Assembly (NCBI GenBank): GCA_900315745.1 | Contig: ONAG01000031.1 | Span: 1 to 57,315 of the forward strand | Reading direction: 5' to 3' | From: an uncultured Prevotellaceae bacterium | Lineage (GTDB): Bacteria; Bacteroidota; Bacteroidia; Bacteroidales; Bacteroidaceae | Length of the DNA stretch: 57,315 nucleotides | Shown here: piece after piece, positions 1,581-34,709 of the stretch | Numbering within the stretch: position 1 is the first letter of the stretch | Layout of the letters: each line of letters opens with the position of its first letter | The notes under the pieces: generated by a model | Seen by the model: only the letters and a program-made list of their open reading frames with translations | Told to the model about the DNA's origin: nothing | The model's database searches: none | Program-made: the position numbers and the translations under genes

Positions 1581-1830
1581 TCTCTTTCCTTTCTTTTTTC
1601 TCCCTTACGTCTTGGCTGCTGGCAGCCTTCTGCGTCCGGGACGTTTGTTATTACGCCGCCCCGAAAAGATGACAGCGAGTGAAAGACAATCGGAAGGTTT
1701 GCGGAAAGTTTTGTCTGCCTTTGGTAGCCATTAGGGAAAGAAAAGTTGCCGTGAAAACCGAGGTCGGCAGCGAGATGCCGTTTATCTTCGCGAAGTAATG
1801 ACATTCGACAAGGACGCTGTAGGTTGAATG
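1581..1830 (-). repeat. Dispersed leader repeat, copy E1
   Basis: One of three copies (others 26301-26541 and 34477-34709). Shared landmarks in plus-strand order are: a GC-rich inverted block, TATTACGCCGC, CGGAAGGTTTGCGG, TTTTGTCTGCC, TAGGGAAAGAAAA, CCGTGAAAACCGA, CTTCGCGAAGTAAT, and a terminal hairpin. In E1 the terminal hairpin pairs CATTC (1802-1806) with GAATG (1826-1830), with an inner stem ACA/TGT around AGGACGC. The element ends at the ATG of the gene at 1580, so on the minus strand it is a ~250 nt leader. No TAnnTTTG promoter was found inside it. A translated frame is open through most of it but is not kept across copies, so I favour an RNA or DNA role over coding. Confidence 0.75.
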
Positions 1831-1888
1831 GTTCCACCAAGATCAAGGTTGAGATTTTTGTGTATAAGGATGTGCAGTTTTGTCTGTA

Positions 1889-1931
1889 CCCAAGAATCTC
1901 GTTTTTTAGGTTTGAAGGTATGTCAATCAAC
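1889..1931 (+). mobile_element. Degenerate IS200/IS605-type right end
   Basis: The flanks CCAAGAATCTCG and GGTATGTCAATCAAC match the right-end signature at 61-104, including the six bases after GTATGTCA. The intervening hairpin has decayed to an AT-rich stretch with little pairing. It lies between repeat E1 and the AbiE-like pair, which suggests that an element once ended here. No transposase sequence is present between the two ends. Confidence 0.45.
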
Positions 1932-1993
1932 TATATGGGAAGTCTATCGAAAAGGGGATTAAAGTTGAATTCCAACCTTTTTTGGGAAAAAGA

Positions 1994-2025
1994 TTTGGAG
2001 AATAGATTTATTATATTTATTTTTG
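1994..2025 (+). promoter_or_regulatory. Bacteroidetes promoter for the AbiE-like pair
   Basis: TTTG (1994-1997), 20 nt, then TATTTTTG (2018-2025) fits the Bacteroidetes sigma-70 consensus TTTG-N19/20-TAnnTTTG. Transcription would start near 2032, about 26 nt before the ATG at 2058. This decides the start of the downstream gene against the longer in-frame alternatives that begin at 1824 or 1920. Confidence 0.65.
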
Positions 2026-2057
2026 CACAAAATATTCCACGTAATATAATTTGCAAA

Positions 2058-3020
2058 ATGAAATATAATATTAATCCGATAACAGATTATTTGGAAGAAC
2101 TGACAGGCTGCAAAACAAGGACACTTGTTCACACGGAAAGAGACGATGAAATGCTTCCACTAGCTATCTCATGTTGCTATAGTTTTTGCGATGTTGAGTT
2201 CATGGAAACGATAATTACCATTGCCATACCTACAGAACAAGAGAACATTTCTCCAATGCAGCTGGCCAAGCATCAGGCAAAGATGATGAATGTATTCCAT
2301 CGTCCAGTTGTATTTGCGTTGGAGTTTGTGGCATCATACAATATTTCGCGACTTACTCAAGCAAAAGTTAATTTTATCGTACCTGGAAAGCTTATTTTCA
2401 TTCCCAGCATGCTGATTGTATTACGCGAACTGAAGAACAGAGCAAAAGTGATGCCAGAGAGGATGCCGCCAGTTGCCCAAATGTTAGTGCTCTATCATCT
2501 TGAAAAGGGAACAATTGATGGATTTAGCACATCGGAGTTAGCTGAACTTACAGGTCTGGCATATCCGACCGTCAATGTTGCACTTCGATGGCTTGCATCC
2601 AATAGCATTATCTCTCTAGTAGGCGGCAAGCAGAAACATGTTCAAATAGCATTGGGCAAGGTTGATTTTTGGAACAAATCCCTTCCTTTAATGTCGTCTC
2701 CCATAGAACGAATTCTCTTCACCGACACAAAACCGGCAGGTTGTTTGATTGCTGGAGAGACCGCAATGGGATATTATACCATGCTCGCAGAACCTACAAC
2801 ACCAATCATAGCTATCGACAAAGCCACGGCCAAGGAGAATGCAGCCTTTATGAACAAACAATACGGGGAAATAAAGGTGGAGGTTTGGAAATATTCTCCG
2901 GCATTGCTTTCTGAAAATGGTTACGCAGACAGGCTTTCGCTCTATCTGTGTATGAAGGATAACGAAGACGAAAGAATACAACTAGAATGTGACACCTTAA
3001 TAGAAGAAATGAAATGGTGA
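2058..3020 (+). CDS. Winged-helix antitoxin of an AbiE-like type IV toxin-antitoxin pair
   Basis: 320 aa. Residues about 140-190 hold a winged-helix segment (TSELAELTGLAYPTVNVALR, then WLASNSIISLVGGKQKHV). The C-terminal half carries the LFTDTKPAGCLIAGETAM block typical of AbiEi-like antitoxins that are paired with nucleotidyltransferases. In this family the antitoxin represses its own promoter and blocks the toxin, probably through a covalent modification of it. The stop codon overlaps the toxin start by 7 nt, so the two are translationally coupled. The start was chosen by the promoter at 1994-2025. Assignment to AbiE-like is by architecture and neighbour; the N-terminal ~130 residues are not recognised. 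Confidence 0.75.
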   Translation: MKYNINPITDYLEELTGCKTRTLVHTERDDEMLPLAISCCYSFCDVEFMETIITIAIPTEQENISPMQLAKHQAKMMNVFHRPVVFALEFVASYNISRLTQAKVNFIVPGKLIFIPSMLIVLRELKNRAKVMPERMPPVAQMLVLYHLEKGTIDGFSTSELAELTGLAYPTVNVALRWLASNSIISLVGGKQKHVQIALGKVDFWNKSLPLMSSPIERILFTDTKPAGCLIAGETAMGYYTMLAEPTTPIIAIDKATAKENAAFMNKQYGEIKVEVWKYSPALLSENGYADRLSLYLCMKDNEDERIQLECDTLIEEMKW

Positions 3021-3781
3021 CAGGAATTGAACGCTGGAAGGAATATTTCAGTGAATATAAAGACAAGTATGTGCTCATAGGCGGTGCTGCGTGCAATCTA
3101 CTTGAAGAAGAACTTGACATGAACCCTCGTGCCACGAAGGATCTTGACCTTATACTTGTGGTTGAAGCCTTAACCCCTGATTTCGGATTACGCTTGTGGG
3201 ATTTCATCAAGTCAGCCAATTATGCTGACCGATACAAAGGCGAAAACAAATTCAAGCATGAATATTATCGATTCAAAAACCCCGAGGACAAGACATATCC
3301 GAAGCAGATAGAGTTTTTCGCTCGGAATACCGGAATGTTAAGCCTACCATCCGATGCTCATATCGAGCCAATAAGTGTTGGAGAAGACCTCTCCAGTTTG
3401 TCTGCCATCCTGATGGATGATGACTACTATGCATTCACAATAGAGCATAGTAGAATCATCGAAGACATCCATATTGCAAACCCCGAAGCTCTTATTTGCC
3501 TGAAAGCGAAGGCGTACACAGAGATGCTGGATAGGAAAGCGGAAGGAGAGCAAGTCGACAGCCGCGATATAGAAAAGCATAAGAAAGATGTCTTCAGGCT
3601 GATAGCCATGCTGCCCCGAGACTCACGCTTTACACTCTCCATGAAATTGAAAAAAGACATGAGTGACTTTTATCAAAGGATAGGAGAACTGCCCAATCCT
3701 GATTTCTTTAAAAATGCAGGATTGAAAGGTTTGGATGCACAACTCCTTTTGGCCCTCTTCAAAAAGGCTTTTATGAAATGA
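3014..3781 (+). CDS. AbiEii/MenT-like nucleotidyltransferase toxin
   Basis: 255 aa. The nucleotidyltransferase core is visible as VLIGGAACN (residues ~20-28) followed by ATKDLDLIL (~39-47). These give the GG/S motif and the D-x-D metal-binding pair of the DNA polymerase beta superfamily. Lys residues in EALICLKAKAY (about 158-168) match the conserved region of AbiEii/MenT-type toxins, which transfer nucleotides to tRNA or other targets. It is the second gene of the pair and overlaps the antitoxin by 7 nt. It may act in abortive phage infection or element maintenance. All core residues appear intact. Confidence 0.8.
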   Translation: MVTGIERWKEYFSEYKDKYVLIGGAACNLLEEELDMNPRATKDLDLILVVEALTPDFGLRLWDFIKSANYADRYKGENKFKHEYYRFKNPEDKTYPKQIEFFARNTGMLSLPSDAHIEPISVGEDLSSLSAILMDDDYYAFTIEHSRIIEDIHIANPEALICLKAKAYTEMLDRKAEGEQVDSRDIEKHKKDVFRLIAMLPRDSRFTLSMKLKKDMSDFYQRIGELPNPDFFKNAGLKGLDAQLLLALFKKAFMK

Positions 3782-3869
3782 GATTTGACGCATATCGCAA
3801 TGTATATGCTTTTCCTGCACGTTGCATCCCGTTTATGATTTTGGGACGATTCCGTGGAGTATAATAAAA

Positions 3870-3893
3870 GAGGGTGGCAGTGTGCGCACCCTC
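3870..3893. terminator. Bidirectional terminator hairpin
   Basis: Arms GAGGGTG (3870-3876) and CACCCTC (3887-3893) pair perfectly. On the plus strand ATTGTTTT follows and on the minus strand TTTTATTATA follows. It lies between the convergent toxin gene (ending 3781) and nuclease gene (ending 3929), so it can serve both. Confidence 0.75.
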
Positions 3894-3928
3894 ATTGTTT
3901 TGGCTTGGTAAAGCCGGCATTGTCCGTC

Positions 3929-5374
3929 TTATCCTATTTGATTTGTCATCCGTTCGATCAGGTTTTTCAGGTTGTCGTATGCGTCCTCCAAGGACGTTGA
4001 CTTGTAGAAGAGCCAGTCGACGCCTTTGGTGAATTCCTTGCTCTTGTAGAAGGGCCGGATGCCGTCAGACTCCTGCATCTCCACCCGGATCTTCTTGGTG
4101 TCATCGGTGTAGAGGGCGCCATATATCAGGTCCTGTCCGATGAATTCAAGCAGGACGATGATGCCTTTCTTGTATTCCTTGTAGGGCAGGATGACCCCTG
4201 CCATGATGTACTTGCTCAGGCGGATGTCGCTGTGTTTCTCCAGGTCGGGGAAATCCCGCTCAAGGTTCGCCATCCACTCGTTGGCGGCGTCGCAGCACAG
4301 CATTCTGCGGTTCCGCTCCAGTTCCTTGACACATCCGTTAATTCTTTTGATGGTCTCGTTCAGCGTTTCCATGTCATGGTATCTGTCGCCGTTCAGGTCA
4401 AGGCGCGAATTGATGTGCTTGTCTATTTCTCTTTGTTCCATATTGTCGGTAGGCGTTAAGTTGAAGACTCTCTTCAGGTAGTCGGAGAAGAGGAAGCGGG
4501 ACTGGCAGAAGTTGGGGTCGCCGATGGATTTCATCTCCTCCGAGTCCAGCCAGCTGATGATGCCCTCCTTGAAGCTGACTTTGCGGTACCTGTTCTTGAA
4601 TAGTTTTTGGATGTTCTTGTCCCATGACCGGTCGGTGGGGCCGTGCCCCTCATCGCTGGGCAGGTAGATGATGTAGACCTGGTCATCCGTCAGTCCGTAT
4701 TTCTGGTCCTTGAGACCTCTGATGTAATTGGACAGCTGGTTTTCCTGCTCCGTGGCATCCCATATCTTGTTCTCGAAGACGATGGCATATTTCCCTTTCT
4801 CATACACGAGGATGTCGATGCGTTTCTGGTCGGTCACGTATTCCTCCTCCTGAAGCACTGGCTTTCTGATCTTCGAAGCCAGTTCCTCGCTGAGAAATTT
4901 CCTCACGAAACTTCTTAGGGCGACATATTCGCCGTCCTGCCTGTAGCTGAAAAAGCCCTTGAGTATCCGGCTCACCCCCTCCTCATTGGGCTGTGCCTCC
5001 AGCAGGACATTGAGCAGGAACGGTTGGTTTTCCCTGACATCCTCACGTATCCTCTTGAGTTCGCCGCAGAAGCTCAGCGTGTCGCCGAGGACGTCTGTCT
5101 TGGCGCGGTTGATGATTGTTGTCTTGTCATACGATGCTCCCATGGTCCAGTATTTGTAGTCGTCAATGTACAGGTAGGGAAGGCTGTAGCTGCCCCATCG
5201 CTCCTGGACGCCGAACCGTCGCTGCATGTCGATGAAGTAAAGGAACTCCTCTTCCGTGAGCGGGCATTCGCCCCTGACGATATACTCATGCGGCGCCCAC
5301 GGCATCGTCTTGGCGTATGTCCACCGACAGCGTGCAATCATCTCCCTGATTTTATCGTAGTTGACTTGTTCCAT
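3929..5374 (-). CDS. PD-(D/E)XK nuclease family protein with DYKYW domain
   Basis: 481 aa. The nuclease core is seen as KRIDILV (D187) followed by IVFENKI (E201, K203) and a helix ENQLSNYI with Q213, the pattern of the PD-(D/E)XK superfamily group often called PDDEXK_4. Members occur in defence islands and are presumed DNA endonucleases. Residues 36-93 form a separate N-terminal module (ECPLTEEEFLYF ... YLYIDDYKYWTMG ... IINRAK) that recurs at the C-terminus of the protein at 22629-23171. The ~250 C-terminal residues are helical and unassigned. It is a single gene that converges on the AbiE-like pair. No methyltransferase lies next to it, so it is not an ordinary restriction system. Confidence 0.75.
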   Translation of the reverse strand: MEQVNYDKIREMIARCRWTYAKTMPWAPHEYIVRGECPLTEEEFLYFIDMQRRFGVQERWGSYSLPYLYIDDYKYWTMGASYDKTTIINRAKTDVLGDTLSFCGELKRIREDVRENQPFLLNVLLEAQPNEEGVSRILKGFFSYRQDGEYVALRSFVRKFLSEELASKIRKPVLQEEEYVTDQKRIDILVYEKGKYAIVFENKIWDATEQENQLSNYIRGLKDQKYGLTDDQVYIIYLPSDEGHGPTDRSWDKNIQKLFKNRYRKVSFKEGIISWLDSEEMKSIGDPNFCQSRFLFSDYLKRVFNLTPTDNMEQREIDKHINSRLDLNGDRYHDMETLNETIKRINGCVKELERNRRMLCCDAANEWMANLERDFPDLEKHSDIRLSKYIMAGVILPYKEYKKGIIVLLEFIGQDLIYGALYTDDTKKIRVEMQESDGIRPFYKSKEFTKGVDWLFYKSTSLEDAYDNLKNLIERMTNQIG

Positions 5375-5462
5375 AGTTTTCGATTTCCTTCTTATTATAA
5401 AACTATTGTTTGGTGTTTTTATTGTCTCTTTGAGAGATACTGATTTTTGGGACAGGACATTC

Positions 5463-6200: not shown

Positions 6201-6225
6201 TTGCAGCATTCCTTTTTTGACATGG

Positions 6226-12524: not shown

Positions 12525-14678
12525 TCATTTGGTGAGGAAGCTGGCGCGGATGAAGCGGATGGAGCCGTTGAAGTCAATCTTGAAGGAGTCGCGTTCCTCG
12601 TCATAGTCGAGGATGGTGCCTTCGCCGAGGACCTTGTGCGTGACCTTGTCACCCGGCTTGAGGGCATCCTCTTCCTCCTCATCTTCTTCCATGGAGCCGT
12701 CCATGTAGATTTCCGCATCGAGCTTGCGGACGAGGTTGAAAGTGCCCTGCCAGATCTCAGGAGGGATGTCACCATCCACCTTGATGATGTCGCGGTCTAT
12801 CTCCATGAGGAAGCGTGAAGGACACCGGGAAGTCTTGTGCGTGTAGTCGAACCCTTCCGACTCCGTGAGGAACACCGCCTTCTCAGCACGTGTGATGGCC
12901 ACGTACATCAGCCGCCGCTCCTCCTCCAGCGCCGGTTTCTTCCGCTCACGGATGGAGCGGTGGTTAGGGAAGATGCCCTCTGTCACCCCGCAGATGAAGA
13001 CGATGGGGAACTCCAGTCCCTTGGACTGGTGGATGGTCATCAGCTTGACAGTATCCCCGTCGTCCTTGTAGTCAGCGTTGGTATAGAGGGCGATGTCCTG
13101 CAGGTATGTGTCGAGAGAGATTTCCTCGTTGATGTTGACCTTCTCATAGTGCAGGATGGAGCTTGCCAGCTCCTGTATGTTTTCGAGCCGGTCCTCATCC
13201 TCGTCCTCCCTGAGCAGGTCTTTCAGGCCGCTCTCCTGCAGGAGGTATTCGAGCATGTCCGAGGTCTTGGTGTTGTCCTTGGCCTTGATGCAGTCCTCTA
13301 TCAGCTCGATGAACTTGGCAAATGCCTCCTTGTCGAATTCCTTGTTTCGGAGGTGGTTTTTGAGCGTGGCATAGAGGGAGGTGCCCTCCTGTTTCGCCAA
13401 TGTCTGCAGCCTGGCCAGCTTCGCCTTCCCGAATTTCCGTGACGGCGTGTTGATGACCCTGACGAATGAGAGGTCATCCTGGTAAGCCACCAGGCGCAGG
13501 TATGCCAGCGCGTCCTTGATTTCCTTCCGTTCGAAGAAGCGGATGCCGCCCCACACCACATACTTGATGTGCTTGCGCAGCAGGGCCTGTTCGATTTCCC
13601 GTGACTGGAAGGCGGCGCGGAAGAGGATGGCGATATCGCTGTTCTTGCATCCTTTCTTGGTGAGGGTTGCTATCTGTTTGGCAATCCAGTCGCTCTCGTC
13701 CTTTTCGGACTTGGCATGGTGGTGGACCGCTATCCTGTCTTTCGGCTTCTGTGTGAACAGGTCTTTGGGGATGCGGTCTTGGTTATGGGCGATGACCGAG
13801 TTCGCCACATTGAGGATGTCGGGAGTCGACCGGTAGTTCTCGTTCAGGATGATGTCAGTCTCAGCGGGGAACTCGATGAACGATTTCGGCTTCGCCCCCC
13901 TCCATTCGTAGATGGCCTGGTCAGGGTCACCGACGATGAACAGGTTCTGGTACTCCTGCGATATCAGGTTGATGATTTCCCAGTCCGTGGTGCTGCAGTC
14001 CTGCACCTCGTCCACCATGATGTAGTTGAGCTGCTTCTGCCAGTACTCCCGTGCGTCGGCATGGTTGTTCAGGATATGCAGGGCGAAGAGGATGATGTCA
14101 TTGAAGTCCAGTGAGAACGCTTTCAGCTGCAGCAGGACGAATCTCTCCGCGTCGTTGAGTTCCTCCTCTGGCGGTTTCTTGTTGAGGATGATGCTCTCGA
14201 TATAGGACATGGGAGCCTTGTAGAAAGAGTCGTATTTGTATTTCTGGACCCCCTTGATGAACTGTCTCACCGTTGCCGCCGTGCGGTCGAGCCCCACCTC
14301 CTCCATCACCTGCTTGGCGAGCGACTTCACGTCCTCCTCGTCGATGATGTTGAAGTTCTTCGGGTATCCGATGCGGTGGATCTCCCTCCGCAGCACCTTG
14401 ACGCAGAAACCGTGGATGGTGCATACGAGGTCGTTGACGTGGGCGGCGTGCACCATGTTGGCGATGCGCGTCTTCATCTCCCGGGCCGCCTTGTTGGTAA
14501 AAGTCATGCACAGGATGTTGGCCGGGTCGATGCCCATCTCATTGACCAGGTAGGCATAACGGTGGGCGAGGACACGGGTCTTTCCCGATCCTGCGCCGGC
14601 TACGATGCGCACCCTGCCTTCCGTGGCGCGTACCGCTTCGGCCTGTTTGTCGTTTAGGGAAGAGAAAATGTTATCCAT
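12525..14678 (-). CDS. UvrD/PcrA-type superfamily 1 helicase
   Basis: 717 aa. Motifs in order: AGAGSGKTR (Walker A, 27-35), CMTFTNKAAREMK, IMVDEVQDCS (motif II), VGDPDQAIYEWRGA (III), ENYRST (IV region), MTIHQSKGLEFPIVF (V) and MYVAITRAEKAVF (VI). A C-terminal Tudor-like segment (KPGDKVTHKVLGEGTI) resembles the PcrA RNA-polymerase-binding tail. It is a 3'-5' DNA helicase of repair and replication. Start was set at the Met before DNIFSSLNDKQ, because the 35-residue extension to 14783 is not family-like. Probably a core gene. Confidence 0.9.
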   Translation of the reverse strand: MDNIFSSLNDKQAEAVRATEGRVRIVAGAGSGKTRVLAHRYAYLVNEMGIDPANILCMTFTNKAAREMKTRIANMVHAAHVNDLVCTIHGFCVKVLRREIHRIGYPKNFNIIDEEDVKSLAKQVMEEVGLDRTAATVRQFIKGVQKYKYDSFYKAPMSYIESIILNKKPPEEELNDAERFVLLQLKAFSLDFNDIILFALHILNNHADAREYWQKQLNYIMVDEVQDCSTTDWEIINLISQEYQNLFIVGDPDQAIYEWRGAKPKSFIEFPAETDIILNENYRSTPDILNVANSVIAHNQDRIPKDLFTQKPKDRIAVHHHAKSEKDESDWIAKQIATLTKKGCKNSDIAILFRAAFQSREIEQALLRKHIKYVVWGGIRFFERKEIKDALAYLRLVAYQDDLSFVRVINTPSRKFGKAKLARLQTLAKQEGTSLYATLKNHLRNKEFDKEAFAKFIELIEDCIKAKDNTKTSDMLEYLLQESGLKDLLREDEDEDRLENIQELASSILHYEKVNINEEISLDTYLQDIALYTNADYKDDGDTVKLMTIHQSKGLEFPIVFICGVTEGIFPNHRSIRERKKPALEEERRLMYVAITRAEKAVFLTESEGFDYTHKTSRCPSRFLMEIDRDIIKVDGDIPPEIWQGTFNLVRKLDAEIYMDGSMEEDEEEEDALKPGDKVTHKVLGEGTILDYDEERDSFKIDFNGSIRFIRASFLTK

Positions 14679-14784
14679 ATTGGTTGACTTTGAGTGTAAG
14701 TTGAAATACGGCTCGGAATTGATATCTTGCCGGTTTTTGACAGGACTTGGTGCTATGCATGACGCCTGATAGGCGTTGGGCATT

Positions 14785-15940: not shown

Positions 15941-16801
15941 TCATTCGATGAATCCTTCCTGGTCATATCCTTTGTGGTATTTGTGAATCAGGTCAAGGAG
16001 AGGTTGTACCCTCGGGTCTTTTGTCTTTCCTTCGTTAGGTCTGTATTGGACGTTGTACCGGTTGCTGTCACCACTTCTTATTCGTTCTTCAGCGTCGTTA
16101 GGAATAAGGAATGAAGATTTTTCACCAAGATATGTAAAAAAGGTGTTCAGGTAGATGTCCACACCTTTGAGGTCGAGGTCACCGAAATGAATGTATTTGT
16201 TAGGGATGGCCATGAGCCATTTTCTTAAATCATCGGTTTGGTCGGTCGGATAACGGTTGACGAAGATGGCCCTTTCATCTGGTTTGAGGAACTTGTCGAA
16301 AAGATATTTCTGTCGCTCGATGAATCTGAAGTTCTCACTGTTTTCGATACCGATGACCACGATTTCAGGTGGTATTTGGAAACTCTCGTACTCGTAGATG
16401 AAGGTGAAGGTTCCTGTCTCCGGGTTGATGGTGATTTCTCTGTTTCCAAGTTTCGCCTTAATTGGATCATAGCAGTTGACAAGGAACCCCTTGAACGTTC
16501 TCTGCCTTTTGGTTTTGGAGTTTCCTGTTAGTCTTGTTTGTTCTGCGCGGCTTACCTCGTTTTTACCCATCATTTCAGCGAGAGCCTCGAGGTCATCAGT
16601 ATTGAAGATGCCGTTTAGGTAGTTTCTGAAGGACTTAATGTCTTTGGCAGCGTAGTAGCCCTTGCTGCCATGAGGTATCATAATGATGGCACCGTCGTTG
16701 ACCATTTTCAGCAACAGTTCGCCCTTAAGGCTTGATTTTGGTATTTGCTCTCCATAGGAGAGTCTTATCATTTTCTGAAGGAAAGTTTTTGTCGTTTTCA
16801 T
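15941..16801 (-). CDS. jetD: Wadjet JetD-like Toprim nuclease subunit
   Basis: 286 aa, last gene of the operon; its start overlaps the jetC stop by 4 nt. The C-terminal half carries a Toprim/DUF2220-like core: IVVIGIENSENF (catalytic E153) and YIHFGDLDLKG (D208, D210). In Wadjet this subunit cleaves plasmid DNA that the SMC complex has extruded and found to be small and circular. Typical JetD proteins are near 380-400 aa, so this one is about 100 residues short, with the deficit in the N-terminal part. Residues 1-110 still contain a small winged-helix-like region. The active-site residues appear intact. Confidence 0.85.
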   Translation of the reverse strand: MKTTKTFLQKMIRLSYGEQIPKSSLKGELLLKMVNDGAIIMIPHGSKGYYAAKDIKSFRNYLNGIFNTDDLEALAEMMGKNEVSRAEQTRLTGNSKTKRQRTFKGFLVNCYDPIKAKLGNREITINPETGTFTFIYEYESFQIPPEIVVIGIENSENFRFIERQKYLFDKFLKPDERAIFVNRYPTDQTDDLRKWLMAIPNKYIHFGDLDLKGVDIYLNTFFTYLGEKSSFLIPNDAEERIRSGDSNRYNVQYRPNEGKTKDPRVQPLLDLIHKYHKGYDQEGFIE

Positions 16802-19800
16802 TCCACGTTCAGTAAATCAACTATTCTTGTGATATCATTCTTCTCTGTATGCTCCTTGTAAAGGAGGTAGTGGTGCTTGTAGGAGTTCACGTCATCGATG
16901 GAGTTCGGCGTTACCAGTATGATATGGATTTTTCGTTTGCTGGCGAACTGTACCAGACCCTCGATGTTTTTCTCATATAGACGGCCGCCCTCGTCAAGGA
17001 GACAATGGATGTAAAGGTCTGCATACTTTGCCGATTTGCGACAGAGCTTCTCCTTGTACACGTTGAGCAGGGTGATGTTGATGATGGTCAGCACAAGCAT
17101 GCTTGTGCCGTTGGAGCCTGGGCTTTTCACGATCTCCCTCCATCCGGAGTCGTGTCTGTTCTCCACGACCCTAACCTCGAGCCTGAACGTGTCCTCGATG
17201 GTCAGAACAGTTTTCTTGAAATGTTGTTTGATCAGTGTTTGCAGCTGCATCAGCAGTTCAATACCATCTTGACGTGCTTTCAAGTGTTTTTCTGGGTCGG
17301 TGAACAGATCCATCTCATGCAGATGTTCCTGATTCATCTCATAGAAATCCTTGATGTCTTTGAGCAGTAACATGATGGGATCAGTGCTATCGCTCATCCG
17401 CAGCTGTATACTGTTGATGCTGCTGACGAAGTTTTCATTCTCGATGTCTTTGTTGATCTTGCTGATGATGCTGGCGATTTCAGTGTTGAACTGGAAGAGG
17501 TTGTAAACATCAATCCTGATGTCTGCTAAGAAGTTCTCGCAATAGGTATTTATCTGCTTTTTATACACCTCAATCCTGTTTTCCTCAACGAATGTGGCCA
17601 GTTCCTTTGCTGTTTCGATGTAGTCCTCATTGCATGTGAAATTGGTCTTAAACTTGAATTGGTTGTTGGCAGAGAAGTTGCTTGAGAAGGCACTGACTTT
17701 TGTACTCAAGTTGTTGGATAGCAGTAGTTGTTCTTGCCTTGTCACATCCAAGGCTTTTACGATGTCGCTGACGCTCTCCTCGCTCTCAGCCATGTTGCTG
17801 TCATCGTATTCAAGTTCTATTCCCCATAATTCAGTTTTTATTTTGGCCTCTTCAATGTTCTTCTTGATGGTTTCAAGCTGTTTTCCTTTATTTTCAAGAT
17901 TTGTCTCAGCTGTTTTGATTGCTTCGAGGATTTCGTGCAGTTTCTTGTTAAATCTGGCATCCAGACTTTTTATCAGGTTGTTGATTTTTTCCTTCTCTTC
18001 CTTTTTCTCGTCAATATGGTCGATATATTCTCTCTTTTTATCATTGTAGACATTGACTTGTGGCATGAGGATGTCAATCTCACGAAGGAGTTTCTTTGTT
18101 TCGTCAAGACTTCTTTGGAGCGCTTCGAGGGACTCGGTGTCCACCCCCTCGTCGGCGAGCGCTTTTTGTTTCTGCTGTTGCTGGATCTCTATGGATTGCC
18201 GGATCTCGTCAGTCCGTTCTTTGAGACGGGCATCCACTTTTGTCTTTTCTTTTTCAGCTTCCTGGCGAAGGTCTTTCTTCTGTTGTTCCAGGTTTTTTCG
18301 GATGTCCTCCACTTTCCTCTTTGCCTCATCCTTGATTTTTTGAAGAACATCTTGAGCCTTATTGATATCAACCTGAAGAGCGTCATCTTCTCTCCGGATG
18401 GTTTCAGTCTGTTCTTTTCTCCATTCCTTCAGTTGGGTGTTGAAATCCTCTATTGAGGAGTTGAGTTTTTTTATGCTCAGAGGTAAGGTCATGGTTTTAG
18501 CTTTGACCTCTCTCAGTTCCTTGTTGAGCGGAACCAGTTTGTTTTTGGCTCTTTGGTTCAGTTTCCCGGCTTCTGCATCCCTTTCTTCTTGGATGGAGCG
18601 TATGTTCTTGTCAGTCTCGTAATTCTCCGAGGCCATTTTATGGATGTCATCCTTGATTTTCTGCGGGGTCAGGATATCTTTCTCTATGTTTTCGAGTTGG
18701 ATGTCCACACCAAAGAACGTGTTGCCGCCACTGACGGACTTTTCCGGATAAAGATCATGCCTATATAGTATGTTTTCCTCATCCACGACTTTTCCGATGT
18801 TCTCTTCCCATCCCTCGATATTTTCGTCAAGCCATTCGATGAATGAGCCGTTTTGCTGTTCAAGTAGTTCATTCAGGTGCTTGATTTCCTTTTTTCTGCC
18901 TTCTATTTCTCCTTGCAGTTTATCGATTGAAGTCTGGGCTTTTCTTTTGACTTCTTCGATTTCATTATTGGCATCGTTCTGGATCTTCTCGATTTCCCGG
19001 TTCAATTCCTGTTCCCTCAGCTGTGCTTGATGCAGTTCATTGTTTTCCTCATCCAACCTATCTTGCAGTTGAACCATTTCCTCTTGATAAGGATTCTTTA
19101 GACTGATATCTTTGATGGCAAGCAGGTTTTTGTTATGTTGCCCATTGAGTTGGTCAAGGTGCTTTTGGGCATCCTCGGTCTGGGCTTCCTTTTCCGTATC
19201 CACCTCCTTGATCTTTTCATTCATGGTGTCAATGGATTTTTGGATGTCTTCCAGAAGCTGTTCCTCTATCTTGTTTTTGTCAGCGGTGGCTGTGTTTGTA
19301 ACTTCTGTAATCTCTCCATTCAGAATTTTGATGGCAGCATCGTATTTCTCCGCCAGTGTCTTGCTCTTGTCGAGCATGATATTGATTTGTTTGTCAAGGC
19401 TCTCGCGTTGAATGTCAAGGTCGTTTTTGCGGGCAACCTTCATCAGCACATCCTGGAAATCTTTATCAGCATATTTCCGTTGGAGTTCTTCTGCCTTTTT
19501 AATGAAACCATTGAGTTCGCCTAATTGCTGTTGAAGTTCTGCTTCCTCATTCTTGTGGTCTTCATTGAGTTTGTCCCGTATTTTATTTTTGTCTTCAACG
19601 TCAGTTTCGAGTTTTTTTATTTCCTCTTGGAGCAGCGGTATTCGTCTTTCGTCGCTGCGTATGGCCAAGGCCAATTTGATGCAAAGCTTTTTCGTCTCAT
19701 CAATGCAGGCCATCAGTTTATGGTAGGTGTCTGTCACCTCATCCGCTTGCTTTCTTACGAGTATCTGACCGTTCTCCACTTTGAACCATTTCAGGATGTC

Positions 19801-20511
19801 CTCATACAACTCGGTGATGCTGGTGATGGTGCTGTCGTATCGTGAAAGTTTGATTTCAGGCTTATTGCTGGTGCCACTGAGGATAGTGTTTATCAAGGTC
19901 TGTTTGATTTCCCCCGCTTCCAGCTTGTTGCTGTCGAGAAATATATTTTGCAGGATGCGCACAATACTTTGGTAATTGTCGCTCTCGGCCAGTGAGAACC
20001 TTCTCCATATCTGTTTGTCCTTGTTGCTGAAAGCTTTGTGGTTTCCGTAGATGATATTCAGGTAATCCTTGGCCGTCTTGACCTCGGGGCTGAAGTAGGT
20101 GCTTGCGCCGATATTCACGGCAATCTGGTCCCACTCTTCTGATGGCTTGAGCAGGATATTGTCCTCTTTTATCAGGAACTTGTCTTCAAACGGGCAGTCT
20201 ATGATTCTCCACACCAGCCTGTTGTCCTTTAGGTAGGTCAGGATGGAGAAAGTGCCATTTTCCCTTGTCACCTCATAGATGATGCAGGAGGTCTTTCTTG
20301 GCAGGTAGAATTCTACGAATCCCTTTTTGTCGGAATCCGTTTCGATGCCCAGGTTTTTCTTGTCAGCGGTGTAGAAGAAAAGGATTGCCCTTTCGGTGGT
20401 TGTCTTTCCCGCGCCCTGGTCGCCTTGGATATGTATGTTACTGTCGAGGTTCATCTCCTCATGTTCGATATCCGCGCTGTCGATGAATATGATTTTACTG
20501 AGCTGTCTCAT
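16798..20511 (-). CDS. jetC: Wadjet JetC SMC-type ATPase (MukB/MksB-like)
   Basis: 1237 aa. Walker A is GDQGAGKTT at residues 30-38. Long heptad-rich coiled coils run through about 280-530 and 600-870, separated by a hinge-like segment near 560-600. The C-terminal head has a signature-type GSNGTSMLVLTIINIT and Walker B CLLDEGGRL, then an ILVTPNS switch region. This is the loop-extruding motor of the Wadjet complex. It overlaps jetB by 17 nt and jetD by 4 nt. Confidence 0.9.
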   Translation of the reverse strand: MRQLSKIIFIDSADIEHEEMNLDSNIHIQGDQGAGKTTTERAILFFYTADKKNLGIETDSDKKGFVEFYLPRKTSCIIYEVTRENGTFSILTYLKDNRLVWRIIDCPFEDKFLIKEDNILLKPSEEWDQIAVNIGASTYFSPEVKTAKDYLNIIYGNHKAFSNKDKQIWRRFSLAESDNYQSIVRILQNIFLDSNKLEAGEIKQTLINTILSGTSNKPEIKLSRYDSTITSITELYEDILKWFKVENGQILVRKQADEVTDTYHKLMACIDETKKLCIKLALAIRSDERRIPLLQEEIKKLETDVEDKNKIRDKLNEDHKNEEAELQQQLGELNGFIKKAEELQRKYADKDFQDVLMKVARKNDLDIQRESLDKQINIMLDKSKTLAEKYDAAIKILNGEITEVTNTATADKNKIEEQLLEDIQKSIDTMNEKIKEVDTEKEAQTEDAQKHLDQLNGQHNKNLLAIKDISLKNPYQEEMVQLQDRLDEENNELHQAQLREQELNREIEKIQNDANNEIEEVKRKAQTSIDKLQGEIEGRKKEIKHLNELLEQQNGSFIEWLDENIEGWEENIGKVVDEENILYRHDLYPEKSVSGGNTFFGVDIQLENIEKDILTPQKIKDDIHKMASENYETDKNIRSIQEERDAEAGKLNQRAKNKLVPLNKELREVKAKTMTLPLSIKKLNSSIEDFNTQLKEWRKEQTETIRREDDALQVDINKAQDVLQKIKDEAKRKVEDIRKNLEQQKKDLRQEAEKEKTKVDARLKERTDEIRQSIEIQQQQKQKALADEGVDTESLEALQRSLDETKKLLREIDILMPQVNVYNDKKREYIDHIDEKKEEKEKINNLIKSLDARFNKKLHEILEAIKTAETNLENKGKQLETIKKNIEEAKIKTELWGIELEYDDSNMAESEESVSDIVKALDVTRQEQLLLSNNLSTKVSAFSSNFSANNQFKFKTNFTCNEDYIETAKELATFVEENRIEVYKKQINTYCENFLADIRIDVYNLFQFNTEIASIISKINKDIENENFVSSINSIQLRMSDSTDPIMLLLKDIKDFYEMNQEHLHEMDLFTDPEKHLKARQDGIELLMQLQTLIKQHFKKTVLTIEDTFRLEVRVVENRHDSGWREIVKSPGSNGTSMLVLTIINITLLNVYKEKLCRKSAKYADLYIHCLLDEGGRLYEKNIEGLVQFASKRKIHIILVTPNSIDDVNSYKHHYLLYKEHTEKNDITRIVDLLNVE

Positions 20512-25787: not shown

Positions 25788-26300
25788 TTATTCTCCTCCG
25801 AAAATTTTCCTGCTGCTGTCAGCCATGGCTTTTTCGGAGTATTCCTCCTCAGTCATCGTTGTCGGCCTTTCAATGAGTCCGTCGATAATGCTGCCCAGCT
25901 GGTCGCAATAGACCTCATCGATGGTCTTGATGCATTCACGCTTGTTGTTCATCAGGCGTACTTCGTAAACATCCTTTCCCTCGTTAAGGGAGATGTACAC
26001 CCAGCCCTTGTGAATGAGGGCACTCACCTTGAGCATCAGGGTTGGCATTTCCTGAAAGAGGGTGTAACATTTCTTGCTCACTCCCCAGCTCATCACTACC
26101 GGGAGGGTCACGCTCCAGAAGAGCTGTTGCCATGCCGTTTCGGCACACTGCTTCAGATATTCCTTATCCATTGTCGTAAATTTTGATGGTTGGTTGTAAC
26201 TATTGCTTTTCATATCTCTTTTTATGTCTCTTGCAACACCATAGAACATAGCCACCCATAAGGCAGCGATGAAGATGTCGATAATTGTCATTGTGTCCAT
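25788..26300 (-). CDS. Membrane-anchored hypothetical protein, first gene of the E2 operon
   Basis: 170 aa. One transmembrane helix (about 4-22, TIIDIFIAALWVAMFYGVA) is followed by a basic stretch and a soluble domain. The start at 26300 is chosen because E1 and E3 end at the same relative point before their first gene; the longer start at 26321 would lie inside repeat E2. An internal Met near residue 37 (MDKEYLKQC) could give a soluble form. No family recognised. Confidence 0.55.
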   Translation of the reverse strand: MDTMTIIDIFIAALWVAMFYGVARDIKRDMKSNSYNQPSKFTTMDKEYLKQCAETAWQQLFWSVTLPVVMSWGVSKKCYTLFQEMPTLMLKVSALIHKGWVYISLNEGKDVYEVRLMNNKRECIKTIDEVYCDQLGSIIDGLIERPTTMTEEEYSEKAMADSSRKIFGGE

Positions 26301-26541
26301 TCGATCGGTTTTTGTTCCCATTCGCTACTTGCTGCGCTTTGCAGCTTTTGCGTCCAGAAGTTGATATTACGCCGCCCCCAAAAGATGGCAGCAAGCGCAA
26401 GACATTCGGAAGGTTTGCGGGATTTTTTGTCTGCCAAGGGCAGCCGATAGGGAAAGAAAAAATGCCGTGAAAACCGATGGCGGGAGCGAGGTGCCCTTAT
26501 CTTCGCGAAGTAATAACAAACAACTGGACGTAAGAGTTGTT
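26301..26541 (-). repeat. Dispersed leader repeat, copy E2
   Basis: Second copy of the element described at 1581-1830, with the same ordered landmarks. The terminal hairpin pairs AACAACT (26519-26525) with AGTTGTT (26535-26541) around GGACGTAAG. The bases of the stem differ from those of E1 and E3 but pairing is kept. It lies directly upstream of the twelve-gene minus-strand operon. Confidence 0.75.
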
Positions 26542-26596: not shown

Positions 26597-26629
26597 ATCC
26601 CCACATCTTCATTGTGAGGATGTGGGGAT
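26597..26629 (-). terminator. Rho-independent terminator
   Basis: Arms ATCCCCACATC and GATGTGGGGAT form a perfect 11-bp stem with an 11-nt loop. On the minus strand TTTTTATATT follows. It ends the transcript of the ClbS-like gene at 26766-27293 and insulates repeat E2. Between 26630 and 26765 I see only a weaker GGCTAC/GTAGCC hairpin and no gene. Confidence 0.8.
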
Positions 26630-30239: not shown

Positions 30240-30246
30240 CACTTCA

Positions 30247-30783: not shown

Positions 30784-31010
30784 CAGCTATTTGTCTTGAG
30801 TTGTTGCTCGTTTTGCAATTTCAAGGCAAAGATACGATATAAAGATGGATTTCGCCGTCTTCGTGGGATTTTATGTGCGTTTTTGTTACGAATGGAAATC
30901 AAGAATGCGGAAGAACAAGGTGAAATGCCAAGAGGAAAGATAATAATTGAAGAAGTATTGTCTTTCCAAGCCAGGATTATGTCAATATGGGCAAGGTGTA
31001 TGCCATCATG

Positions 31011-31295
31011 TTATCCCTGGTCCTTCTTATTATCTAGAAGGTGATGTCTTCTGCTATTCATCCAGCAGGAGATGACGTGATAGCACTTGCCAATGGCATA
31101 GATGGCTGCCAAGCACGTAAACACGACAAGTGCAGCATCGATCGCCTCTCCGCTCGTTCCCATGGCATCCATGATGATATGTATGCATACGGCGATGAAT
31201 GCATACAGCATGACGGCAGAGAAAAGACAGAATATGGCCTTCCATATTCTCGCCAGTGCATGAGTGAATGTTTTGCAGGCCTTTTTGATGTTCAT
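31011..31295 (-). CDS. Small membrane protein
   Basis: 94 aa from MNIKKACK. Two hydrophobic helices (about 15-42 and 54-72) flank a short loop, and the C-terminus is basic (SRRHHLLDNKKDQG). A start 7 codons upstream is also possible. It lies 76 nt downstream of another small membrane protein in the same orientation. Confidence 0.5.
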   Translation of the reverse strand: MNIKKACKTFTHALARIWKAIFCLFSAVMLYAFIAVCIHIIMDAMGTSGEAIDAALVVFTCLAAIYAIGKCYHVISCWMNSRRHHLLDNKKDQG

Positions 31296-31371
31296 GGTTT
31301 GTCCGTTTGTTGGCATAAATATAAAAGAATAAATAACGGCATCGTTTCAAGAGAGAAGCTCATCGCATTTA

Positions 31372-31629
31372 TTATGTTGTCGCAAGGTCGATGTACAGTG
31401 CGGTCAGGACTGTCAGGAGCCAGAGCAAGAGCATCCACGACGAGATGTAGGTCATCTTCCTTTCCGCCTGCTTCTGGTTGGGCACCTTGTAGTGTCTGTT
31501 TCGGATCAGGTAGAGGAACACCGAGTAATACATGAACCCCCACAGGAAGATGCTGTTGGCATTCCTGATGAGCGTAATGAGATAATATGTGTCATTGCGA
31601 ATGTCTGCCATATCGGTGCATGTCATCAT
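31372..31629 (-). CDS. Small membrane protein
   Basis: 85 aa with two hydrophobic segments (about 25-42 and 62-82) and a short basic loop. The start overlaps the stop of the 31626 gene by 4 nt, so the two are translationally coupled. It is part of the E3 operon tail. No family recognised. Confidence 0.6.
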   Translation of the reverse strand: MMTCTDMADIRNDTYYLITLIRNANSIFLWGFMYYSVFLYLIRNRHYKVPNQKQAERKMTYISSWMLLLWLLTVLTALYIDLATT

Positions 31630-32714
31630 TTGTAGTCGGAAGGATGCGAATGAGTCTTGCGGTCAAGATACACTTGTGCATAAGCGTATCTGACGGAAAG
31701 GAAGAAATCGACATAATTCTGCACCTCATGAATGAACTTCGGGTAATAGACATGCAGGATTCTCCCCACAAGGGTCAACATTTCGAGTTTGACGAAACAA
31801 TCCTCCGGATTGGCGATGCTGGAGATAACGAAGGCTGTTGCCCGAACGCCCACATCCGGGAAGATCTCATATTTCTGGACGTTCACAAGACCAGGGCCAT
31901 TCAGGTCAAACTGTATCAAGTCCCCCTTGTCATCCAGGACTTTCTCATGGTAGACATTGTCATAGTAGTTCTTTCCGTCATAGGCGTACTCATCCACCCG
32001 CTTGAAGTGAAGGATAGCGGTCAGGTTCTCTCCTGTGGCGAGCAGCGGTTTCACGTCATGCAATCTCGCATATTTTTCGCCGGAACCCGATGCGGTGGCA
32101 TATCCGATTTTTCTTCTGGTGATGCCGTTGATGCGCACCGTCTTGTATCCAGAGCCATGGGGGACGGAAACGTAATTGCCGATTCTGAGCTTTTCCACGG
32201 TGAGCGACGGATAAACCTTCTTGCCATCATACAGGATGAAGGGCGGGGAGTCCTTCTTCAATGGCCTGATGATGGCCGTTTGTTTTTCCGGAAGGGACAT
32301 GCCCTTGGAACGTGTCAGGACGCCTTCGTTGGCAACTGTCGGGCTTGGCCATGTTCTTTGGAGGAACTCAATCATTTCATGCGTGGACGAATAGGCTTTG
32401 AGCAGGCTCTCGTATTTTTGGAAGCCCTGCTTCAGTTGTTCCTGTGAGGCATACAGGCTCTTCGCGCAGCCGTCAGGGGTGCCGTCGGCATGGTTTGGTC
32501 TGGTTCCCTCATCAGCGATGCCAGGAAAGACGGGATTGCCGTTGCCGTCTTTGGCGGTCCGAAGGTAGTGAGCCATTTTGGTCGCAAGCACCAGCATTCC
32601 TTTGGCGGCACACCAGCGCAGCTGTTTCTCTGTATCCTCTGGGAAGCGGAACTTTGCCTCCAGTTGGGTGTCCTCGGCGATACGTGCGAGGAGCGGTAGG
32701 GAAAGGTGTCTCAT
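31626..32714 (-). CDS. Hypothetical protein of the E3 operon
   Basis: 362 aa, soluble. The N-terminus (SLPLLARIAEDTQLEAKFRF) is helical. The middle (about 160-240) is beta-rich with GYKTVRINGITRRKIGYATA. No catalytic motif is visible. It is the largest gene of the operon and is coupled to a small membrane protein gene. It lies 112 nt downstream of the 32827 gene. Confidence 0.65.
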   Translation of the reverse strand: MRHLSLPLLARIAEDTQLEAKFRFPEDTEKQLRWCAAKGMLVLATKMAHYLRTAKDGNGNPVFPGIADEGTRPNHADGTPDGCAKSLYASQEQLKQGFQKYESLLKAYSSTHEMIEFLQRTWPSPTVANEGVLTRSKGMSLPEKQTAIIRPLKKDSPPFILYDGKKVYPSLTVEKLRIGNYVSVPHGSGYKTVRINGITRRKIGYATASGSGEKYARLHDVKPLLATGENLTAILHFKRVDEYAYDGKNYYDNVYHEKVLDDKGDLIQFDLNGPGLVNVQKYEIFPDVGVRATAFVISSIANPEDCFVKLEMLTLVGRILHVYYPKFIHEVQNYVDFFLSVRYAYAQVYLDRKTHSHPSDYK

Positions 32715-32826
32715 ATCTCTGTTTTTGTTTTCAAGCTGCTGTAATAGGATGTCTTCAAAGCTGACAACCGAAATGGCAGTTTCTTTTATTTGGGGAAATC
32801 ACCAATAAAGATGAATTTTTTTACGC

Positions 32827-33267
32827 TTATGGTTGTTTGTTTTCATGAGGGGCATCATCCACTACGGTTATGGAATCGTCATCATTCGTCCTTTGGCGGA
32901 TCACCCCCGCGGAGTCAGCCAGGAGAGTGATTTTGCCGCAGATGATGTCAATCTGATCAGCCAGTTCGTGCTCGGCCCAGTTCCATCTGGCTTTCTCAAT
33001 CCATCTGTCAGCCATCTGGATGAATTCATCTCTCCATTCGTCTTTTATCGCGCCCTCCTTATGGCAATAGTCGGCGAGTTCCTTGAAGGAGGCGGCGAGT
33101 TCGCTGATGACATTCCGGAGGTATTCTTTTGTCCTGTTCATCATCCATTGGCGACGGACAGAGGGTCTGCAGTCTTCGATGCAGGTAGGCTTCCGTCTGT
33201 CATCGGAAGGGAAGGTGTCGAAGATGTAGATGCATGAGATGTTTCTGCGTTTCAATGTTTGTGGCAT
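32827..33267 (-). CDS. Hypothetical protein with a Cys/Trp N-terminal motif
   Basis: 146 aa. The N-terminal segment CIYIFDTFPSDDRRKPTCIE followed by DCRPSVRRQWM is well ordered and looks conserved. The rest is helical and contains a Trp-rich stretch (DRWIEKARWNWAEHEL). No family I can name. It lies 18 nt downstream of the SLOG protein gene. Confidence 0.6.
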   Translation of the reverse strand: MPQTLKRRNISCIYIFDTFPSDDRRKPTCIEDCRPSVRRQWMMNRTKEYLRNVISELAASFKELADYCHKEGAIKDEWRDEFIQMADRWIEKARWNWAEHELADQIDIICGKITLLADSAGVIRQRTNDDDSITVVDDAPHENKQP

Positions 33268-33285
33268 CTTGTCATGATTTTTAAG

Positions 33286-33660
33286 TCAATGTATCACCCT
33301 CACCAGGAGGTTGTGTTCCCTGGCGCGCCGAATCATATCGAGCGTGCCACGGTTGGCCACGCCATAGAGAGGGAATGCGATGAGCGCATCCGCATTCTGT
33401 GCCATCTGCTCGTTGCGTACCGGGCCGGCGGACTTGCCGAGCCCCTCCCAGTCCGCAGGGTATCGCTCCACCTTGAGACGGTGTCTCCATGCGTATCGCT
33501 CACCGAGGGCGTCAGCCCCCTGCGCACATCCGCTGACGATGACCACCCTGCAGTCAGGGTCGCTGAGTTTGTTGGCGAGGATAGCGTCACATTTTGCCAC
33601 CATCTTTCTGTAGTTGCAGTAATAGCGCGAGCCGGCTATTATCACGCGGAAGGTTTTCAT
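33286..33660 (-). CDS. DUF2493/YspA-like SLOG protein
   Basis: 124 aa. The beginning FRVIIAGSRYYCNYRKM has the GSR nucleotide-binding turn, and VVIVSGCAQGADALGERYA supplies the second conserved loop (SGxAxGAD). A later GPVRNEQMAQNADALIAF completes the Rossmann-like SLOG fold. SLOG proteins bind nucleotides or nucleotide-derived ligands. The long N-terminal extension to 33771 overlaps the neighbouring gene and is rejected. Confidence 0.8.
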   Translation of the reverse strand: MKTFRVIIAGSRYYCNYRKMVAKCDAILANKLSDPDCRVVIVSGCAQGADALGERYAWRHRLKVERYPADWEGLGKSAGPVRNEQMAQNADALIAFPLYGVANRGTLDMIRRAREHNLLVRVIH

Positions 33661-33697
33661 TATGCCATTATGTTTGGTAATCAAAAGCGTGTTGGGG

Positions 33698-33961
33698 TCA
33701 TGGGGAAGGGATGGCGTCTTTGACGTATTCATCGTACTCTTTCGGTGAGAGGAACCACCATCTTTGGCCATAATCCTCAGCGAGGATTTGTCCGCTCCCC
33801 ACGGAGTTGACCCATACTCCCTGGATTGTCGTCACTCCCTGTCTCAGCAGATAGACAGGCAGGTCGTGCTTGTTTTTGCTGACACCCCTGACACACGGCA
33901 GCCTGAAGATGTCGTGTGACAGTTTCTGTGGCAGGACTATTATTTGTCTGAAGCGAAGCAT
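33698..33961 (-). CDS. Hypothetical protein of the E3 operon
   Basis: 87 aa, soluble, with GVWVNSVGSGQILAEDYGQR and WWFLSPKEYDEYV near the end. It is 37 nt upstream of the SLOG gene and in the same orientation. No family recognised. Confidence 0.55.
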   Translation of the reverse strand: MLRFRQIIVLPQKLSHDIFRLPCVRGVSKNKHDLPVYLLRQGVTTIQGVWVNSVGSGQILAEDYGQRWWFLSPKEYDEYVKDAIPSP

Positions 33962-34008
33962 ATCAGAGGGAATTAGGGTGGGGGAGTGGTTGGCTCCCCA
34001 TGGCCTTT

Positions 34009-34476
34009 TCAGATGTGGTAGTCGAGCATGGCGCCGATATAGAGCGTGGTGCAGTCCCCGCAGGCGACGTCCTTGATGAATTGGTTAAGGCTCATCAGTT
34101 CGTTCTCGTAGTAGAAGAGAGCGTTGTTGCCCAGATAGTTCTCGATGGAATGCTCCAGATTGTAGGTTTCCATCCAGTTCGTGATGTTGTCCTCATTCAG
34201 TGCGTTTGCGTAGTCCCGGATGGTGTTTATCATCCGTCTGAGGATGAGCCTGACGTTGTCACGGTTGACGGTCACCGAGCGGTTGTCCCGGTTCACCGTG
34301 AACAGCTCGGAGGGAGTGGCGTTCACGAAGCCGTTGAAGCCGTCCTCGTCCTCCCGTTCGTCACCCACCCAGTCGATGCCAAACTTTCCATAGTCATAGT
34401 CTGCGATGTCGTAGTTGGAGAGGTGGTCATCCTTCTCCATCTTTTGTTTACTGACCTGAAAGATTGTTGAATGCAT
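34009..34476 (-). CDS. Hypothetical acidic protein, first gene of the E3 operon
   Basis: 155 aa. It has an acidic N-terminal half (YDIADYDYGKFGIDWVGDER) and a helical remainder (LRRMINTIRDYANALNEDN). It has no signal peptide. Its ATG sits at the inner end of repeat copy E3, as for the first genes of the E1 and E2 operons. Function unknown. Confidence 0.65.
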   Translation of the reverse strand: MHSTIFQVSKQKMEKDDHLSNYDIADYDYGKFGIDWVGDEREDEDGFNGFVNATPSELFTVNRDNRSVTVNRDNVRLILRRMINTIRDYANALNEDNITNWMETYNLEHSIENYLGNNALFYYENELMSLNQFIKDVACGDCTTLYIGAMLDYHI

Positions 34477-34709
34477 ATCGTTTTCTTTTTCTCCCTTTCG
34501 CAGCTTGCTGCTTTGCAGCTTCCGCGTCCCGGGTTGTTATTACGCCGCGTGTCGGAGATGGCATGGAGTGCAGGACAGTCGGAAGGTTCGCGGGTTTGTT
34601 GTCTGCCTCCGGCAGCCGATAGGGAAAGAAGAAACCCGTGAAAGCCGATGTCGGAAGCGAGATGCCTTCTAATTTTGCGAAGTAATAACACCCACGGACG
34701 TGAAGGTGT
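34477..34709 (-). repeat. Dispersed leader repeat, copy E3
   Basis: Third copy of the element at 1581-1830. The terminal hairpin pairs ACACC (34688-34692) with GGTGT (34705-34709), with an inner stem CAC/GTG around GGAC. Small indels relative to E1 and E2 shift the reading frame inside the element, which argues against coding. It separates the operon starting at 34476 from an upstream minus-strand operon. Confidence 0.75.

Follow-up and report, generated by a model that had tools for sequence, protein, structure and literature searches.

A recurrent hairpin element upstream of Bacteroidales operons is a probable promoter in single-stranded DNA

Why should one contig carry related blocks of sequence directly before the first genes of three different operons? 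The question is raised by contig ONAG01000031.1 of an uncultured Prevotellaceae bacterium (assembly GCA_900315745.1), which was analysed over its whole length of 57,315 nucleotides (nt), called the window here; within its 4.59-Mb, 166-contig genome it is numbered C53. The initial annotation described three related leader copies, each before the first gene of a minus-strand operon, and this was borne out by blastn, a repeat search and cmsearch. We consider it likely that each copy is a promoter for single-stranded DNA (ssDNA), working like the Frpo of the F plasmid and built for a Bacteroidota sigma factor. The evidence consists of a long hairpin, covariation in one type of copy (K-type), a conserved promoter box and its geometry, the content of the genes behind the elements, and their co-orientation with relaxase genes.

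The mechanism that we propose would operate during conjugation, when one strand (the T-strand) enters the recipient. If the transfer origin adjoins the relaxase genes, as usual, the T-strand would be the template of the genes behind the elements, and an element carried in it would fold into one long imperfect hairpin. The gene-distal arm, which bears TAnnTTTG (the -7 box of the main Bacteroidota sigma factor, as given in the available part of PMC7366714), joined in a few copies by TTTG 19-20 nt ahead of it, would act as the non-template strand and the gene-proximal arm as the template. Most copies have a 4-6-nt bulge in the template arm at TAnnTTT^G, by which the start region would stay open. 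We infer that RNA polymerase would bind there, initiate close to the hairpin base and continue into the genes while they are single-stranded; the zygote would then make proteins such as SSB, ParB, anti-restriction proteins and methyltransferases before the second strand, whose synthesis the element may also prime. In duplex DNA the box points away from the operon, which would leave the promoter off, and it points toward the operon only in the single, folded template strand.

The three window copies are blocks of ~220-240 nt on the minus strand, delimited by cmsearch with a model of which they are themselves part. In the repeat search, E1 and E2 shared 138 nt at 83%, and a 43-nt family was present in three copies; blastn with E2 as the query returned the other two window copies with E values of 2.4e-44 and 4.9e-41. 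The ATG of the first gene follows the match end by 12 nt in E1 and by 8 nt in E3, and at E2 the downstream reading frame overlaps the last 13 nt of the element, with a later in-frame ATG present. The elements, their parts and the genes that follow (lengths in amino acids, aa) are as follows.

1593..1818, minus strand: E1, E-type hairpin element before the 1044-1580 operon (blastn, cmsearch)
1783..1790, plus strand: E1 -7-like box TATCTTCG, one mismatch to TAnnTTTG, template strand, gene-distal arm
1614..1627, minus strand: E1 small gene-proximal hairpin GGCTGC/GCAGCC, in the predicted 5' untranslated region (UTR)
1044..1580, minus strand: first gene after E1, 178 aa, phosphoribosyltransferase-like (Pfam)
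26309..26532, minus strand: E2, E-type hairpin element (blastn, cmsearch)
26498..26505, plus strand: E2 -7-like box TATCTTCG, one mismatch, template strand
26331..26345, minus strand: E2 small gene-proximal hairpin GCTGC/GCAGC, in the predicted 5' UTR
26597..26621, minus strand: terminator-like hairpin with T tail, directly upstream of E2
25788..26321, minus strand: first gene after E2, 177 aa from the first ATG (in-frame ATG at 26300), no family match
34485..34702, minus strand: E3, E-type hairpin element (blastn, cmsearch)
34670..34677, plus strand: E3 -7 box TAATTTTG, exact TAnnTTTG, template strand
34507..34519, minus strand: E3 small gene-proximal hairpin GCTGC/GCAGC
34009..34476, minus strand: first gene after E3, 155 aa, no family match

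The Pfam match of the gene at 1044-1580 has an E value of 2.5e-4 and 20.8 bits, under the cut-off of 26.3; this gene is related to the first gene after element K1 of Xylanibacter ruminicola. The hairpin at 26597-26621 would insulate the E2 operon from readthrough.

Six further copies were found in the same genome. The close ones lie on contig C73 (8949, 37521 and 47854, all plus; E values of 2.5e-38 to 3.2e-67 by blastn with E2) and contig C45 (3421, plus), and the distant ones on C125 (28640, plus) and C109 (23970, plus). Since C73 bears a Rep3 initiator and a MobA/VirD2-type relaxase and C109 bears homologues of the TraG ATPase and the coupling protein, the element belongs to at least one conjugative or mobilisable element; the window contig itself gave no relaxase or coupling-protein match in searches for both. 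Blastn with E2 matched in one of 99 other genomes (G009). The covariance model R1, built from the 8 close copies (TATCTTYG-type), found three K-type copies in X. ruminicola D31d (G463) and one copy in G170, where a rescan revealed a second copy of M2 type; its match in G241 had 24 bits over 74 nt. A pattern scan over the genomes of 84,980 species yielded 38 stretches, 28 of them with R1 matches and all of these in records whose titles read Prevotella, Xylanibacter, Prevotellaceae or, in a single case, uncultured bacterium. The 10 stretches without an R1 match were rejected: six in clearly unrelated groups (L045, L046, L060, L067, L070 and L077), L079, and the Bacteroidales stretches L047, L053 and L059, which also fail the second model, R2.

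R2 was built from K-type copies. Within the order it matched in 9 of 393 genomes, the window's own included; two of these matches, in G685 and G817, were likely false and were dropped, the hairpin being absent. Across the phylum it matched in 1 of 296 genomes, namely the window's own. The large genome searches scored 5-7 candidates per genome, and their counts are lower bounds. Among named plasmids, R2 matched in Parabacteroides distasonis plasmid 23 (upstream of ParB, of SSB and of a small gene), in Bacteroides finegoldii plasmid 6 (three copies) and in the CTnDOT-like Bacteroides fragilis plasmid p214_V8GG_COL1 (L131; one copy). Altogether there are dozens of copies in other Bacteroidales, several adjoining plasmid or conjugation genes, and one comparison set held 41 distinct copies of at least 210 nt out of 45. 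No match was found in viral contigs in one pattern scan, nor in phages by blastn. Plasmids of Bacteroides thetaiotaomicron and Phocaeicola dorei (L132 and L133) had only weak or partial R2 matches, in tandem and upstream of SSB, which are possibly a further subfamily; both plasmids carry the same gene kit of SSB, phosphoribosyltransferase, SLOG and PcfK/AcrIIA9.

The element consists of one long imperfect hairpin over its length and a small gene-proximal hairpin, and the latter (GCTGC/GCAGC or GGAGC/GCTCC) is kept in most copies with its letters changed. The long hairpin is clear in K-type copies (n = 27), with a mean z of -5.39 as template DNA and -5.57 as mRNA-like DNA. It is weaker in E-type copies (n = 12, some nearly identical), for which the mean z was -2.29 on the template versus -0.98 on mRNA-like DNA, and the template strand folded better as DNA in 12 of 12. 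RNAalifold energies on MAFFT alignments were poor and strand-dependent (E-type DNA, template -10.3 versus -7.1; K-type, -2.8 versus -12.5), and per-sequence folds with a consensus structure drawn from single folds were therefore used instead. For 19 distinct K-type copies this structure had 81 pairs, 84.2% paired cells and 123 double-changed cells, compared with 46.2 (SD 5.3) in shuffles and 21-32 when slid; 0 of 500 shuffles reached the observed count, a figure that is not a probability since the copies are related and the structure was derived from the same sequences. In the apical helix both sides had changed in 15 of 24 pairs.

The initial annotation had claimed selection on structure and proposed a covariance-model search. 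That search produced relatives in Bacteroidales and strong K-type covariation, and selection on structure stands for the long hairpin; the 8 close copies alone gave no support in the covariation term (+0.86 kcal/mol). The hairpin that had been named, with outer stems CATTC/GAATG, AACAACT/AGTTGTT and ACACC/GGTGT, fell away: the letters are present and the covarying structure is unsupported. Stems of such length arose in shuffled flanks with P = 0.17 (E1), 0.017 (E2) and 0.20 (E3), and among 9 other E-type copies one relative of E2 had the same stem, seven had 2-4 pairs and one had 5 pairs (P = 0.24). A local hairpin around GGACG was at chance in two of the three window copies and absent from most others. 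The constant GGACG/CGTCC is the closing stem of the element-wide hairpin in most single-copy folds; copy F3 on C73 folds otherwise.

The promoter box was followed through 52 distinct copies. TAnnTTTG was present in the gene-distal arm of the template strand exactly in 42 of the 52, with one mismatch in 9 and with two in 1, and not a single exact TAnnTTTG (0/52) occurred in either arm of the mRNA-like strand. The free positions vary, the bases before TTTG in the exact boxes being TACC (34 copies), TATC (5), TAAC (2) and TAAT (1); the C109 copy of the window's own genome, which is outside the 52, has an exact box too. At least 4 of the 8 box bases are paired with the other arm in 47 of the 52, and a template-arm bulge of 4-6 nt is found at TAnnTTT^G in 34. 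A TTTG (-33) lies 19-20 nt from the box in G653 and G571, and one copy of B. finegoldii has it at 20 nt.

The copies of one element share their orientation: 3/3 minus in the window, 3/3 plus on C73, 3/3 plus in G463 and 4/4 minus in G132, with the full-length copies of P. distasonis (3/3) and B. finegoldii (3/3) all minus. Some of these places also gave weaker matches on the opposite strand, which derive from the inverted repeat. Relaxase (PF03432) searches, which covered 4 genomes and then 29, gave nine contigs with both an element and a relaxase (G463, G847, G840, G736, G858, G571, G755, G132 and C73), the first three being one conserved element. A co-oriented relaxase was present on 9 of 9, a count that leaves out relaxases on contigs other than the element's and one weak match, G841:C2. 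Plasmid p214_V8GG_COL1, on which MobABC and the element are both minus, adds one; its element is far from mobA on the same strand. The gene order in X. ruminicola and Prevotella sp. tc2-28 is Rep3, a NikA-like gene (match below its cut-off), relaxase, Tra genes, coupling protein, ArdC, K1 and K2. In related systems the transfer origin lies before the NikA-like gene. If so here, the K end of the circle would be leading and the T-strand would be the template of the K operons.

An ATG frame of at least 50 aa starts between 45 nt before and 155 nt after the match end in 60 of the 63 listed copies, at a median of +15 nt. The first gene is SSB at X. ruminicola K3, in L080 (below cut-offs), in G132 and in P. 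distasonis; an SSB search in the order led to one genome, G132, whose upstream element had been missed by R1 and was found by R2. ParB comes first in G132, G736 and P. distasonis, an N6-methyltransferase in G132 and L048 (L074 having the same start), and ArdA in G823 (1.9e-30). Copy F3 on C73 precedes a plasmid-borne DNA polymerase III beta clamp gene (L010:9190-10392), and the K1 operon begins with a phosphoribosyltransferase followed by RadC. PcfK and PcfJ are encoded some genes down the operon in G653, and PcfK likewise in G755; in CP126057.1 the annotation given to a PcfK homologue is AcrIIA9-family Cas9 inhibitor. On p214_V8GG_COL1 the element stands before a PcfK/PcfJ operon, and the plasmid also carries RteC, MobABC and Tra genes and, elsewhere, tet(Q). 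For many first genes, including the ones behind E2 and E3, no family was matched.

A number of observations weigh against an ssDNA promoter and are gathered here. Of the 10 inexact boxes among the 52, 8 carry a C in place of T at position 7 and the other 2 deviate in their first base; TATCTTCG is the form in 6 of 12 E-type copies, E1 and E2 included. The E2 and E3 boxes have 2 of 8 bases paired in the predicted fold, and several E-type folds place the bulge elsewhere. The -33 TTTG is absent from all E- and K-type copies, most of which have ACCGA[GT]G at that place. Some named plasmids show a less clear fold: of their 7 copies, 5 had an exact box, 3 had at least 4 box bases paired and 2 had the bulge at the fixed place. 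The pattern of the genome scan and model R2 both contain the box and thereby bias the later box counts; less biased sets are 8 blastn copies, with 3 exact boxes and 5 with one mismatch, and 5 copies found by R1, all exact. Wobble cells show no strand preference in K-type copies (63 G.T on the mRNA-like strand versus 46 on the template) and do not choose the strand in E-type copies (5 versus 9). When F Frpo2 was used as a control it folded well, and the crude box scan missed its published -35/-10 boxes. As to geography, G755 has a second relaxase of opposite orientation on the same contig, the relaxase and element are 158 kb apart in G132 and 118 kb in G858, and X. ruminicola K3 lies 20 kb beyond K2 with possibly chromosomal genes between, so that K3 may or may not be in the same element as K1 and K2. 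The 'leading region' placement itself is a prediction from the positions of the relaxase and NikA-like genes.

Other explanations were weighed against the same data. The initial annotation had suggested a regulatory RNA leader. On such a reading the element would be a 5' UTR transcribed from an upstream double-stranded promoter, and its folded RNA would act on the operon, for instance through attenuation, antitermination or the binding of a protein. The regulatory role before several operons has held up; the RNA reading has lost ground, the long hairpin being as stable on the template strand, and we regard it as unlikely. It agrees with an element that ends a few nt before the start codon, with K-type RNA that folds as well as DNA, and with the small gene-adjacent hairpin kept through changes of letters. 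It would leave unexplained the reverse-facing sigma box with its recurrent bulge and the co-orientation with relaxases; moreover, a -33/-7 promoter (at most 1 mismatch, up to 150 nt upstream of the element) was found in only 2 of 52 copies, E2 has a terminator-like hairpin directly upstream, the RNA strand shows no clear excess of wobble pairs, and E-type DNA folds better on the other strand in every copy. The comparison with Rfam proposed alongside it named no family, Rfam 15 giving 0 matches at the gathering score in the whole window; the best weak match, BTnc005 on the opposite strand of E2, had 21 bits versus 174.8 and an E value of 0.013, did not recur at E1 or E3, and looks like chance. 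The direction of the box in duplex DNA would instead suit a double-stranded promoter and operator firing away from the operon, toward a divergent gene or antisense RNA, with the inverted repeat as a protein site. E1 does have a divergent gene, and an ATG frame of at least 100 aa begins within 300 nt upstream in as many as 22 of 60 copies, which also speaks against the ssDNA promoter; this number is an upper limit, since antisense frames were counted. The other 38 have no such frame, the missing -33 TTTG of E- and K-type copies tells against this promoter as well, and it would not account for a hairpin of ~60 pairs with the box paired and, at one position, bulged in most copies, or for a start codon so close downstream. 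It appears quite improbable.

A single-strand initiation site, at which the hairpin primes second-strand synthesis after transfer and transcription is secondary or absent, recalls the title of the Frpo paper, which names both transcription and primer RNA synthesis, and would fit G571, where the element lies ~0.8 kb before the relaxase gene and is separated from the start of its first frame by 412 nt. A reading frame close behind nearly all listed copies, and a conserved gene-proximal hairpin that would be superfluous for priming alone, make this very doubtful as the whole explanation. Imperfect ssDNA hairpins also recall integron attC sites, and the different operons behind similar elements could suggest a recombination or cassette site for exchanging them. 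However, the attC hairpin, with its R/L boxes, is downstream of a gene cassette and the element here is before genes, and subfamilies keep their own first genes across many genomes (a phosphoribosyltransferase-like gene for K1, a 77-aa gene for K2); we find such a site scarcely credible.

The ssDNA promoter has its closest counterparts in the Frpo/ssi sequences of F, ColIb-P9 and related plasmids, which, in the available parts of PMC9849209 and PMC11541004, likewise have a hairpin of the transferred strand with promoter boxes rebuilt in its stem, and occur in several copies of one orientation before ssb, ParB-family, anti-restriction and methyltransferase genes. The leading region of F has its ssb, ParB, antirestriction and methylase genes co-oriented with traM, traJ and traY. 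The leading-region anti-defence islands (Samuel et al. 2024, PMC11541004, available part) similarly hold anti-restriction, SSB, methyltransferase and anti-CRISPR genes co-oriented behind ssDNA promoters. The Frpo/ssi box is TATAAT/TTGACA, whereas the elements here have TAnnTTTG, the recurrent TAnnTTT^G bulge and a Bacteroidales host. Blastn searches of 72,556 plasmid records, F (NC_002483) included, with E2 (E up to 1e-5) and K1 (E up to 0.01) gave no match; given this lack of nucleotide similarity to Frpo/ssi, the element was not filed in the Frpo sequence family, and the likeness is functional only. The main text of PMC11541004, as available, does not contain 'bacteroid' and describes a search for new promoters by -35/-10 consensus boxes, which would probably miss TAnnTTTG; nor does 'bacteroid' occur in the available part of a survey of Frpo from 2026 (PMC12826799). 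For CTnDOT-type conjugative transposons the likeness is the copy before the PcfK/PcfJ operon of p214_V8GG_COL1, and no description of such a promoter in these elements was found in the searches of open-licence papers.

Several other features of the window were observed. Two plus-strand genes at 1824-3781 (398 aa, weak helix-turn-helix match; 255 aa, no match) stand amid minus-strand genes and may resemble abortive-infection or toxin-antitoxin pairs. A similar stretch of ~45 nt (CAAGAATCTCG...TATGTCAATCAAC) flanks the E1 operon at 61-115 and 1885-1932, as judged by eye, and may be a separate repeat. A DUF3584 protein of 1237 aa (5e-54) is encoded at 16798-20511, near a UvrD-type helicase gene at 12525-14783; the region could be a defence or DNA-processing cluster. 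The window end at 57217-57315 (99 nt) equals the first 99 nt of contig C45, reversed, indicating that both contigs run into one repeat, a typical assembly break.

Bacteroidales exchange plasmids and conjugative transposons heavily, tet(Q) elements included. The searches of open-licence papers listed nothing on ssDNA promoters, leading regions or an early-expression system in Bacteroidota or Bacteroidales. On balance we favor, with somewhat better than even confidence, a Bacteroidales-wide class of ssDNA promoters that is unrelated in sequence to Frpo, is read by a TAnnTTTG-reading sigma factor, has a recurrent template-arm bulge, and runs the establishment and anti-defence genes of conjugative plasmids and CTnDOT-like elements of the rumen and gut. 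If this is true, the ssDNA-promoter mechanism had a separate origin, or was independently rebuilt, in a phylum whose promoter rules differ, and such elements would probe how far a promoter has to be double-stranded when the sigma factor reads very different boxes. The TAnnTTTG hairpin would then mark the genes that are switched on first in the recipient.

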